DNA from: Candidatus Bilamarchaeum dharawalense
GTDB taxonomy: Archaea; Micrarchaeota; Micrarchaeia; Anstonellales; Bilamarchaeaceae
Direction of reading: 5' to 3'
Assembly: GCA_902386555.1 (NCBI GenBank)
Contig: CABMJJ010000007.1
Coordinates: forward strand, 1-64,000
DNA: 64,000 nucleotides
Positions 1 through 48,719 of the stretch are shown piece by piece (position 1 is the first letter of the stretch; every line of letters begins with the position of its first letter). The notes beneath the pieces are model-generated. The model saw nothing but the letters and a program-made list of their open reading frames with translations, had not been told where the DNA came from and did no database searches. The position numbers were made by a program, and so were the translations under genes.

Positions 1-365
1 GGACATCCTGGTCGTGTAGGAGCGGCCAAGGGTTGGGTTGTTCATCCATTAAAGTCCCACATGAGCTGGGTTCAGTACGTCGCGAGACAGTACGGTAGTA
101 TCTCCTGGAAGTGTTGCCCCTTGAGAGAAAGGATCTTTGAGTACGAGAGGAACGGAGATTCGGCGCCTCTAGTCGATCGGTTGTGAATTGCATTGCCGAG
201 CAGCCACGCGCCACGTCGATAAGACCTGAAAGCATCTAAGGTCGAAGCGACTCTTAAAACGAGGGGGCATATACCGCGGATAGCAGATCCGCTTGATAGG
301 ACTGAGGTGTAATGCGCTAGAGAAATCGAGCGTTTCAGCCTGCAGTTACTAACGGTCTAATCTAC
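1..365 (+). rRNA. 23S ribosomal RNA, 3' end (partial)
   Basis: This is the last part of the large-subunit rRNA; the gene begins before the window. The sarcin-ricin loop, the universal binding site of elongation factors, is visible at 140-153 as AGTACGAGAGGAAC. The downstream helix that ends in GCGCTAGAGAAATCGAGCG and the terminal TTACTAAC segment match the 3' region of archaeal 23S rRNA. The exact 3' end is uncertain by about ten bases. No 5S rRNA follows within the next 250 bases, so 5S must lie elsewhere. Confidence 0.93.
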
Positions 366-988: not shown

Positions 989-1563
989 TTTTCTATTTTT
1001 ACTTCAACTAATTTTTTTTCATCTTCAGTTGCTTTGAAGTATTCTTTTGGTTGCATACCCAGCATGGAAGCTGCAAACGAATCAGGTATTGAAGCTATTC
1101 TTGTGTTATAGAGAACAACGGAATCGTTGTAAAATTCTCTCCGATCTGCAATTTGATTTTCCATTGCAGTAAGCTGTTCCTGTAATTTCAAAAAGTTCTC
1201 ATTGGCTTGAAGTTTTGGATAATTCTCCGCGACTGCAAAAATAGATTTAAGACTAGCAGAAAGAGCATCGTTAGCTCTTGCTTTTTCACTTGGGCCAGTG
1301 GCACTCATCATTGCAGTTCGCAATTTAGTAAGATCTTCCAGAACACCTTTCTCATATTTTGCATAACCTTTGACAGTTTCAACTAAATTAGGTATCAAAT
1401 CAGATCTTTGTTTGAGAACCACGTCTATATTTGCCCAGGATTTATCAATATTATTTTTAAGTGAGATTAAACCATTGAAGATTGAGACAATATAAAACAG
1501 AACAAGAAGTATGGAAACAACAACAAAAAACCCAACACATGCAATTAATGCAAATTCAGCCAT
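985..1563 (-). CDS. lemA: LemA family membrane protein
   Basis: The 192-residue protein has one N-terminal membrane helix (about residues 5-30) followed by a long alpha-helical cytoplasmic part. It carries LemA hallmarks: a conserved segment with RSDLIPNLVETVKGYA near residue 55, and NENFLKLQEQL followed by E-N-Q-I-A-D-R-R-E-F-Y-N near 120-145. The molecular function of LemA proteins is not established. It is the second gene after a GIDE-domain protein, a partnership seen in many prokaryotes. A GGGTGA ribosome binding site precedes the ATG. The 121-base gap to the upstream gene is packed with hairpins. Confidence 0.93.
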   Translation of the reverse strand: MAEFALIACVGFFVVVSILLVLFYIVSIFNGLISLKNNIDKSWANIDVVLKQRSDLIPNLVETVKGYAKYEKGVLEDLTKLRTAMMSATGPSEKARANDALSASLKSIFAVAENYPKLQANENFLKLQEQLTAMENQIADRREFYNDSVVLYNTRIASIPDSFAASMLGMQPKEYFKATEDEKKLVEVKIEN

Positions 1564-1603
1564 AAAAATTTCACCCTCATTCTAATTAATAAAATTTTTA
1601 TTA

Positions 1604-1679
1604 TTGACCGGAATGCCGGTCAAAGCCATAAAAAATCACCATTTTTTATATTTGATCGCGTTTCATCCGGGCGATCAAA
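1604..1679 (-). repeat. Array of three perfect hairpins between the GIDE-domain gene and lemA
   Basis: Three consecutive perfect stems lie between two genes read on the minus strand. TTGACCGG pairs with CCGGTCAA (1604-1623, AATG loop). ATAAAAAA pairs with TTTTTTAT (1628-1649, six-base loop). TTTGATCGC pairs with GCGATCAAA (1651-1679, eleven-base loop). A weaker AT-only palindrome lies at 1587-1603. Read on the minus strand, the first and third hairpins both follow the word ATGGCTTTGA, so part of the unit is duplicated. Possible roles are processing or attenuation between the two genes. Confidence 0.6.
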
Positions 1680-1684
1680 GCCAT

Positions 1685-2458
1685 TTAAACACCAGCCAGG
1701 TCAAGCAATAGGTATAATCCTATAGCTGCAAATATAAATCCACCCACGATCATGGGCCAAATGGACCACCAAATTTTTTCAACTGCTTTTTTTTCATTGG
1801 AATCGCTCACATACATAATCTGATCAGTTTTTCCTTTTCGAATAATCAAATTTTCCTGTTGAACTGCACTACTTGCACCTTCCTTAGGTTCAGCAGAACC
1901 AAGAATATACAAAGGATCGCCCTCTGCAATGAAGGATTCGGTTACCCGAAGCTCGGTATGGGAATGAGATTTGAACTTGGCTAGAACATCTGGGGCGTTA
2001 TTGAGATAATCCAGAATCTTTGGATCCAGTGTTTTCCGTTTCATACCAAGAAAGCCCTTGTCGTCCAAATATCCAGTTGATGTTAAATCCGACGGTATAT
2101 CGATTTCAGCTCCATTGGGATCGATTAACATTTTGCCAGTATCATCTTCAAGATAAAATTGTTTGTTGGTGGATGGAGTGTAAAAATCTCGCCAACCACC
2201 GTGTTTGCCACTTTTGTAGTATTCACATTTCAAACTCCAGTAAATACACTTAACTTTGGAAATTGGACTGTTTAAACTATCAAGACATTTTGCTTTTCCA
2301 AATATTTCAACTAGACCCACGGCAACAGACCGAACCTTGGATGTTGGTATGTTCTTTATTTTTTGTTCCAGAAGATAACGTTGTACACCGCCGTAGATCA
2401 TTCCAAGTCCTGCAAGGAAGAACATGGGGCCAGCAATACAAACACCGCAATCTGCCAT
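1685..2458 (-). CDS. GIDE-domain membrane protein (E3 ubiquitin ligase-like fold)
   Basis: The 257-residue protein has an N-terminal membrane helix (about residues 5-25), a soluble beta-rich middle domain and a C-terminal membrane helix (about 232-254). The middle part has the look of the GIDE domain: a Cys followed by YWSLKCEYYKSG near 72-84, a region with FYLEDDTGKMLIDPNGAEID near 100-120, and EGDPLYILGSAEP near 180. In eukaryotes this domain sits in MUL1-type ligases, but no RING finger is present here. Pairing with lemA downstream is a common prokaryotic arrangement. Biological role unknown. Confidence 0.82.
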   Translation of the reverse strand: MADCGVCIAGPMFFLAGLGMIYGGVQRYLLEQKIKNIPTSKVRSVAVGLVEIFGKAKCLDSLNSPISKVKCIYWSLKCEYYKSGKHGGWRDFYTPSTNKQFYLEDDTGKMLIDPNGAEIDIPSDLTSTGYLDDKGFLGMKRKTLDPKILDYLNNAPDVLAKFKSHSHTELRVTESFIAEGDPLYILGSAEPKEGASSAVQQENLIIRKGKTDQIMYVSDSNEKKAVEKIWWSIWPMIVGGFIFAAIGLYLLLDLAGV

Positions 2459-39906: not shown

Positions 39907-40198
39907 GCCCCAATAGTCTAACCTGGATAGATTTTGAATAAAAATTCAACTTCACCGGAAAGGACGTGACCCTGCGAACCCGCTTTTAGGAAAAGCGGGA
40001 CCAAAACTCGCTGTTGTAAAACGCTTCGCGTTTTAGATAACTTGTTTTCGGATCGAACCTTTTTAATGCAGTTTTTCCTCAAGATTATAAAAAGGTTCGA
40101 AGAGGAAAGGTTACGGTCCGCGTTCAATGTTCTTTTTTAGGAAAAAAGAACCAAAAACTGGTTCGTTAAAAAAGAACGAACATATCGCGGTTGGGGCG
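39907..40198 (+). tRNA. tRNA-Arg (GCG anticodon) with three apparent introns
   Basis: The acceptor GCCCCAA (39907-39913) pairs with TTGGGGC (40191-40197), followed by discriminator G. The D-stem GTCT (39916-39919) pairs with GGAC (39962-39965), and an insert of about 33 bases lies within the D-loop (about 39924-39956). The anticodon stem TGACC (39967-39971) pairs with GGTTA (40109-40113); the loop CTGCGA-A has anticodon GCG (39974-39976) and a 130-base insert (39978-40107) at the canonical position 37/38. The T-stem CCGCG (40118-40122) pairs with CGCGG (40186-40190) and its loop TTCAA-AT holds a 56-base insert (40128-40183). Removing all three gives a standard 73-base tRNA with A20, an Arg identity base. 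Insert edges in the D-loop are ambiguous by a few bases. Confidence 0.85.
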
Positions 40199-48564: not shown

Positions 48565-48719
48565 AGCCCCCGGCGAGAATTGAACTCGCGGCCTCGTCCT
48601 TACCAAGGACGCGCGCTACCTTTGCACCCGCTTCTTATTAGAAGATCGCAAAAACGCGAAGCATTCAAAGAACCAATTTTTGCCAAGCTTTTCTAAAAAG
48701 CGGACTGCGCTACAGGGGC
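48565..48719 (-). tRNA. tRNA-Thr (GGT anticodon) with an 81-base D-loop insert
   Basis: On the minus strand the acceptor GCCCCTG pairs with CGGGGGC, followed by discriminator T as in archaeal tRNA-Thr. The D-stem GCGC pairs with GCGC, the anticodon stem CGTCC/GGACG holds loop TTGGTAA (anticodon GGT at 48602-48604), the variable loop is AGGCC, and the T-arm GCGAG-TTCAATT-CTCGC is intact. The D-loop reads AGTCC, then an insert at 48621-48701, then GGTA. The insert ends can pair (CCGCTT with AAGCGG), as expected for an archaeal intron. Without it a normal 74-base tRNA remains. Confidence 0.88.

Follow-up and report, generated by a model that had tools for sequence, protein, structure and literature searches.

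The question raised by this locus is whether a tRNA-Arg(GCG) gene interrupted in the D-loop, the anticodon loop and the T-loop can still give rise to a functional tRNA, and where the interrupting sequences come from. The window, by which we mean the whole stretch of 64,000 nucleotides that was analysed, comprises bases 1-64000 of contig C7 in a 1.27-Mb genome assembly of 11 contigs (G000) that is 88% complete. Its relatives place the genome in the Micrarchaeota: when named genomes were searched with an S11-like ribosomal protein, the leading matches were for the most part Candidatus Micrarchaeota, with groundwater and sediment among their sources, although the best two bear the labels 'archaeon' and, unexpectedly, 'Smithellaceae bacterium'. 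The answer we consider likely is that this is a working tRNA-Arg(GCG) gene, that its three introns are removed by an epsilon2-type EndA together with the ligase RtcB, and that two of the three derive from E1, an element dispersed in the structural RNA genes of the genus. E1 copies were recognised with R1, a covariance model built on 17 E1 copies that had been picked for having the stem and that include both copies in the window. The features of the gene are as follows.

39907-40197, + strand: tRNA-Arg(GCG) gene, from our own intron-tolerant search and syntenic orthologs
39907..39928, + strand: exon 1, with the acceptor 5' strand, the D-stem 5' strand and most of the D-loop; its letters equal those of the intron-free G009 ortholog
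39929..39960, + strand: D-loop intron, 32 nt, no E1 match, from the comparison with orthologs
39961..39977, + strand: exon 2, with the D-stem 3' strand, the anticodon stem 5' strand, the anticodon GCG and position 37, from the G009 comparison
39978..40107, + strand: anticodon intron at 37/38, 130 nt, with E1 first (5' end) and further hairpins behind
39979..40018, + strand: E1 copy in the anticodon intron, sense; R1 match of 44.7 bits, E=7.1e-7, among the 17 training copies of R1
40108..40127, + strand: exon 3, with position 38, the anticodon stem 3' strand, the variable loop, the T-stem 5' strand and TTCAA, from the G009 comparison
40128..40183, + strand: T-loop intron, 56 nt, nearly all of it one solitary E1
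40130..40169, + strand: E1 copy in the T-loop intron, sense; R1 match of 45.1 bits, E=5.9e-7, a training copy of R1
40184..40197, + strand: exon 4, with the final T-loop bases, the T-stem 3' strand and the acceptor 3' strand, from the G009 comparison

Neither ARAGORN nor the Rfam tRNA model calls the Arg gene in the window. Our own intron-tolerant search, which scores structure, returns it at the positions above with the anticodon GCG and a score of 20.3; the best false match in three Markov-shuffled copies of the window reached 19.9, so the structure score lies near chance and is by itself indecisive, and it is the syntenic comparison that decides. The adjoining aEF1-beta gene was located in 15 of the 17 same-genus genomes, and a tRNA-Arg(GCG) stands beside it in 14 of those 15 loci when our own is counted (G001 has none). 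The ortholog in G009 carries no intron. Once 32 + 130 + 56 nt are taken out of the window gene, 73 bases are left, four of which differ from the G009 gene; two of these four form a compensatory change, the C-G pair 27-43 of G009 being U-A in the window. The three interruptions described in the initial annotation are thereby confirmed, as is its statement that all stems are intact, and its insert sizes of about 33, 130 and 56 nt need correction only in the D-loop, where the insert measures 32 nt. The spliced sequence is, by ortholog comparison, a normal and conserved tRNA, as expected for archaeal tRNA introns excised through bulge-helix-bulge (BHB) motifs. Among the 14 Arg orthologs the D-loop intron occurs in four (ours, G012, G013 and G005), the anticodon-loop intron at 37/38 in 12 and the T-loop intron in five, with all three present together in G012.

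Three other identities were considered for the locus and rejected: a pseudogene, a group I intron and another RNA family, the last a possibility that the initial annotation had named for checking. Against them stand the syntenic orthologs, one of which is intron-free, and the fact that no rival Rfam family matches there at the gathering score. For a group I intron in particular, the window has no Rfam group I match at the gathering score, and the introns measure 32, 130 and 56 nt as against some 200 nt or more. An intron-free copy elsewhere in the genome had been suggested as a further check, and no second GCG gene was found among the 28 RF00005 matches (E<=10; several partial, judged by eye) or among the modelled tRNAs of this 88% complete assembly, from which a copy may be missing.

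The splice motifs of the three introns differ. At the T-loop intron, exon GTTC can pair with GAAC near the intron 3' end, leaving the bulges AA|U and AU|A, and the closing stem is GUUCUUUUUU/AAAAAAGAAC; cuts at the two bulges give exactly the G009 sequence. Its BHB score of 30 (p=0.005 against resampled introns) is the best of the three introns of the Arg gene. The helix is present in the fold of the isolated 67-nt segment (z=-4.2); when the whole precursor is folded at minimum energy, G53 is taken up by the T-stem and GTTC/GAAC therefore does not form. At the D-loop intron, exon CTGG pairs with CCGG at the intron 3' end (4 bp, central helix 4/4) next to the 3-nt bulge AU|A, and this helix is also paired in the whole-precursor fold; the inner helix is weak and the BHB score is not above that of shuffled introns (p=0.37). 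The 130-nt anticodon intron, whose E1 is laid out as the hairpin CCCGCTTTT-AGG-AAAAGCGGG followed by ACCAAAACTCGC, is without a clean BHB motif (p=0.56); in its strongest motif the true 3' site is used again, and the partner 5' site falls 74 nt into the intron. Nested two-step splicing was searched for at this intron, and no convincing second step was obtained. As modelled, the T-loop intron has good BHB support, whereas that of the D-loop intron is partial and that of the anticodon intron poor.

The same test was applied to 45 introns in 37 modelled tRNAs, the null being introns generated from a first-order Markov chain; it covers all tRNAs collected apart from the Glu-like match of L021 (score 19.0), the hand-read L092, L093, L105 and L026, and the tRNA-Ala of L005, which is intron-free and was missed by our own tRNA finder. 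A p-value below 0.05 was obtained for 27 of the 45 introns and not for the other 18, and a 4-bp central helix was observed in 15 introns where 6.0 were expected.

The genome encodes both enzymes that such splicing would use. The special endonuclease type of ARMAN archaea, to which the initial annotation had pointed, is present: a three-unit EndA of 391 amino acids (about 390 being typical of the epsilon2 type) matches the ARMAN-2 enzyme (4fz2) at 441 bits over residues 4-391, that is, over its full length, and in the alignment, read by eye, the catalytic triad Y236/H251/K282 and the loop lysine K161 are identical residues. The triad and the loop lysine of the epsilon2 enzyme are named in a passage of PMC6379350. 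RtcB is encoded as well (558 bits), so that endonuclease and ligase are both available. A second, small EndA paralog of 166 amino acids lies on L002 at 1462-1959 (- strand; G000:C11, about 87.8-88.3 kb). It has the invariant stretch LRLHRKGxRPGED and, compared by eye with 1a79, His in place of the catalytic Tyr and Lys in place of the catalytic His. This paralog is found in 16 of the 17 same-genus genomes, the only absence being G003, which is also the sole genome without E1.

What the initial annotation missed is that two of the three introns of the Arg gene hold one element that is common to tRNA genes throughout the genus. The E1 unit consists of a hairpin with a variable, covarying stem around TTTT-NNN-AAAA, followed by a short CCAAAACTGG hairpin, and it carries one or two inverted hairpin ends. 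At least four further base pairs were present in 126 of 165 pattern-picked copies, compared with 18.9 (maximum 32) when the partners were shuffled; the 165 were chosen by loop and downstream sequence only, and many of their loci had been fetched with the structure-aware R1, which makes the test partly dependent. The genome contains at least 54 E1 copies (R1, E<=0.01), of which 34 lie in tRNA genes, six abut tRNA ends and 14 lie elsewhere; seven of the 34 and one of the six come from three hand-read tRNAs with approximate ends or from the weak Glu-like match. Within tRNA genes the orientation is sense for 19 copies and antisense for 15. All six abutting copies turn the hairpin side towards the tRNA, four of them at 3' ends and two, reversed, at 5' ends. 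E1 is multi-copy, dispersed, present in both orientations and bounded by inverted ends, features that it shares with MITE-like elements.

When matches to E 0.02 are used, which adds four (E 0.010 to 0.019) to those of the placement count, E1 occurs in 24 of the 45 modelled introns (11 sense only, eight antisense only, five both; five of the 24 hold both ends), while 21 introns, the Arg D-loop intron among them, have no E1 match. The introns of tRNA-Asp and tRNA-Pro, which lie at different sites, contain copies whose interiors are nearly identical and whose end stems differ; near-identical interiors in separate tRNA genes within a genome are the mark of transposed introns of the Thermoproteales type, here with ends that differ. 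In L030 and L092 we observed full-length E1 copies with a near-identical interior and end stems that are different, yet each self-complementary, as if the ends had been rewritten or exchanged. Outside tRNA genes, the end of an archaeal RNase P RNA match is followed at a distance of 4 nt by an E1 copy (E=0.0102; L102, G000:C9:310489). An inverted E1 pair at G000:C4:51117-51184 (L091) lies between apparent D' (CTGA) and C' (TGATGA) boxes of what we take, by eye, to be a candidate C/D-type small RNA, for which no Rfam model match was obtained at E<=5.

Introns are frequent in the tRNA genes of this genome. They were found in 29 of the 37 modelled tRNA genes (15 with one, 12 with two and two with three), a biased fraction, as the loci were collected through RF00005 or E1 matches. 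The second gene with three introns, tRNA-Gly(CCC), scores only 19.9, equal to the best shuffled match, yet has two E1 copies inside. The initial annotation had called three introns in one tRNA exceptional, a view that proves too narrow given this gene, the Arg ortholog of G012 and the tRNAs with three introns already described in passages of PMC4090602 and PMC6379350. One further tRNA gene of the window belongs here.

48566..48719, - strand: tRNA-Thr(GGT), whose D-loop carries an intron of 81 nt (48622-48702)

Its intron contains a degenerate E1-like hairpin by pattern and has no R1 match at E<=1. Several other observations were made on the tRNA genes. The genes for tRNA-Arg(CCT) in L028 and tRNA-Arg(TCT) in L029 are 90% identical over 136 bp, a stretch that covers the tRNA together with a long insertion inside the anticodon intron. 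A second type of T-loop intron, which ends in GCAAAGCTGAC, was seen in two tRNA-Leu genes of this genome and again in tRNAs from two relatives (L101, L106, L121, L231). The gene of L005 on the - strand (G000:C9:240269-240155) is printed with the anticodon TGG and has its intron in an unusual place within the anticodon arm (by eye); most likely the TGG call is an initiator tRNA-Met misread around its intron.

Comparison with relatives extends these counts. E1 (E<=0.01) is present in 16 of the 17 same-genus genomes, our own included, with 7 to at least 99 copies in 15 of them, two in G007 and none in G003; all E1 counts are lower bounds, the candidates scored per genome being 150 (same-genus search), 77, and 21 (phylum search). 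The phylum search (E<=1e-4) gave E1 matches in at least 24 of 301 genomes, among them 15 of the 17 of the home genus. The remaining genomes that match are the two of a second genus in the same family, G076 (another family) with at least nine matches, G275 (another family of the same class) with at least six, and five further genomes with a single match each. The E1-free G003 has 35 RF00005 matches (E<=1e-5) and G014, with at least 99 E1 copies, has two; across the 17 genomes, with kinship ignored, E1 copies and RF00005 matches are negatively correlated (Spearman -0.53, p=0.03). The E1-like hairpins of G076 abut the 3' ends of intact tRNAs and none of the three G275 copies read lies in a tRNA, from which it follows that E1 is not always an intron.

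An insertion in 23S rRNA can be compared directly with its empty site, which lies at the start of the window.

1-371: 3' end of the 23S rRNA, at the contig edge (Rfam)
235..236, + strand: 23S rRNA junction that is the empty site of the G014 E1 insertion (blastn)

The 23S rRNA of G014 is split by a 188-nt E1 unit (L218, 869-1056), and that of the window continues without interruption at the exact site: in the blastn comparison, window positions 17-235 align with L218 650-868 at 95.9% and 236-362 with 1057-1183 at 91.3%. Read by eye, AAGC and GCUU of the G014 intron form a helix of 4 bp, with bulges of 3 nt.

We propose that the precursor of tRNA-Arg(GCG) would be cut by the epsilon2-type endonuclease and its exons joined by RtcB, that the T-loop and anticodon introns derive from E1, and that E1 is probably mobile, a dispersing family of introns excised through BHB motifs. 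E1 would spread as a short DNA element, and an insertion would survive where its own two ends pair and the last intron bases pair with the 5' exon, making a bulge-helix-bulge. Such insertions would be tolerated because the broad-specificity epsilon2 enzyme then excises E1, and spread as a DNA element would account for the two orientations, the copies flush with gene ends and the empty sites. The intron-free ortholog, the compensatory exon change, the BHB statistics, the E1 copies in both orientations, the covarying stem, the near-identical interiors in tRNA-Asp and tRNA-Pro, the negative correlation with RF00005 matches, the 23S empty site and the genes for EndA and RtcB argue for this reading. 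Against it stand the structure score near chance, the poor motif of the anticodon intron, the weak inner helix of the D-loop intron and the T-loop helix that is absent from the whole-precursor fold, together with the 18 of 45 introns at p>=0.05, the 21 of 45 without E1, the lack of a Y1 or reverse transcriptase match here and the non-intron E1 copies of G076 and G275.

More tentatively, E1 may be an introner of archaea. It would then be a non-autonomous DNA element, short and with hairpin ends, that enters tRNA, rRNA and small-RNA genes in either direction, supplies most of the splice motif and has filled the genus with introns, and its removal by the epsilon2 enzyme would be aided by the lineage-specific, non-catalytic EndA subunit (in 16 of 17 genomes and absent only from the E1-free G003). 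Two enzyme families were searched as candidate movers of E1: Y1 transposase and reverse transcriptase each have matches in 5 of the 17 same-genus genomes, and neither has a match in the genome of the window. Two exact E1 patterns searched on viral contigs gave no match.

It is unlikely that these are instead ordinary, vertically inherited archaeal introns whose hairpin is a structure favoured by epsilon2 selection and which spread only rarely, through the gene conversion or reverse splicing that has been put forward for Thermoproteales. The sharing of the Arg D-loop intron by 4 and of the 37/38 intron by 12 of the 14 orthologs fits such inheritance, as does the variation of E1 stems with retained pairing, and spread of introns between tRNAs is already known from a passage of PMC4090602. 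Vertical inheritance does not lead one to expect that 15 of the 34 copies in tRNA genes are antisense, that some copies lie away from tRNA genes and others directly against tRNA ends, that one interior recurs in tRNA-Asp and tRNA-Pro at different sites, or that E1 is patchy across taxa.

E1 could also be a host element for the 3'-end formation or processing of stable RNAs, with the intron copies captured by recombination between tRNA genes and trailers, an origin that we regard as improbable. Its position at tRNA 3' ends in our genome (four of the six abutting copies) and in G076, and the copy 4 nt after the RNase P RNA match, agree with such a role; the E1-like hairpins next to the 3' ends of intact tRNAs in G076 and the three non-tRNA copies read in G275 allow for it as well. 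The other two abutting copies, however, lie reversed and upstream of the tRNA, 34 of the 54 copies are within tRNA genes, and the copy number, 7 to at least 99 in 15 of the 17 genus genomes, falls to two in G007 and none in G003. That the tRNA gene at the Arg locus is dead or in decay, which the initial annotation had judged the less likely alternative, is highly improbable, since the three insertions and the failure of ARAGORN and the Rfam model to find it are set against intact stems, a compensatory change in the anticodon stem, the same neighbour in 14 of 15 loci and the lack of any other GCG gene among those found.

Short hairpin elements that look mobile, have covarying stems and lie in RNA genes are known as the double-hairpin elements of fungal mitochondria, and introners of eukaryotes are elements that make introns. 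E1, compared by description, is similar in kind to both and differs in belonging to another domain of life with another splicing machinery. The hairpin repeats derived from IS200/IS605 are likewise short, non-autonomous repeats with hairpin ends; the ends of E1 are alike in being hairpins but are inverted, and the genome has no Y1 transposase match. Among archaeal rRNA introns of the BHB type, the G014 23S intron is alike in its 4-bp helix and 3-nt bulges and differs in its length of 188 nt, too short for a homing endonuclease gene, and in ends that it has in common with tRNA introns.

The closest parallel comes from Thermoproteales, where canonical as well as non-canonical sites of different tRNA genes carry introns that are very similar to one another (Fujishima et al. 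2010, in the account given by a passage of PMC4090602). E1 resembles these transposed introns in the near-identical intron sequence of different tRNA genes and is set apart, by description, in that it is found in Micrarchaeota with an epsilon2 endonuclease, forms a defined hairpin-ended unit in both orientations and also occupies 23S rRNA and non-tRNA sites. The epsilon2 endonuclease of ARMAN-2 (Ca. Micrarchaeum), treated in parts of PMC12397907 and PMC6379350, is of the same type as ours, with identical triad and loop lysine; the dispersed intron family found here goes unmentioned in those parts of the two papers, and this genus has, in addition, a conserved small EndA paralog without the Tyr and His. 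BHB introns, tRNAs with three introns, epsilon2 enzymes and the transposition of introns in Thermoproteales are thus already in print in passages of PMC12397907, PMC4090602 and PMC6379350. For a hairpin-ended intron family in two orientations in the tRNA and rRNA genes of Micrarchaeota we found no report in the open-access literature, a search that cannot prove absence.

For the origin and movement of archaeal tRNA introns, E1 offers a defined unit with recognisable ends. Genomes contain as many as about 100 copies, relatives show matching empty sites and one genome of the genus is free of E1, so that the gain of introns, their orientation and their excision become testable. Introns derived from E1 would explain why only two tRNAs are found by the Rfam model at E<=1e-5 in G014, which is estimated to be 90% complete, and tRNA genes hidden by E1 in this way can distort estimates of tRNA content and codon use for the group.
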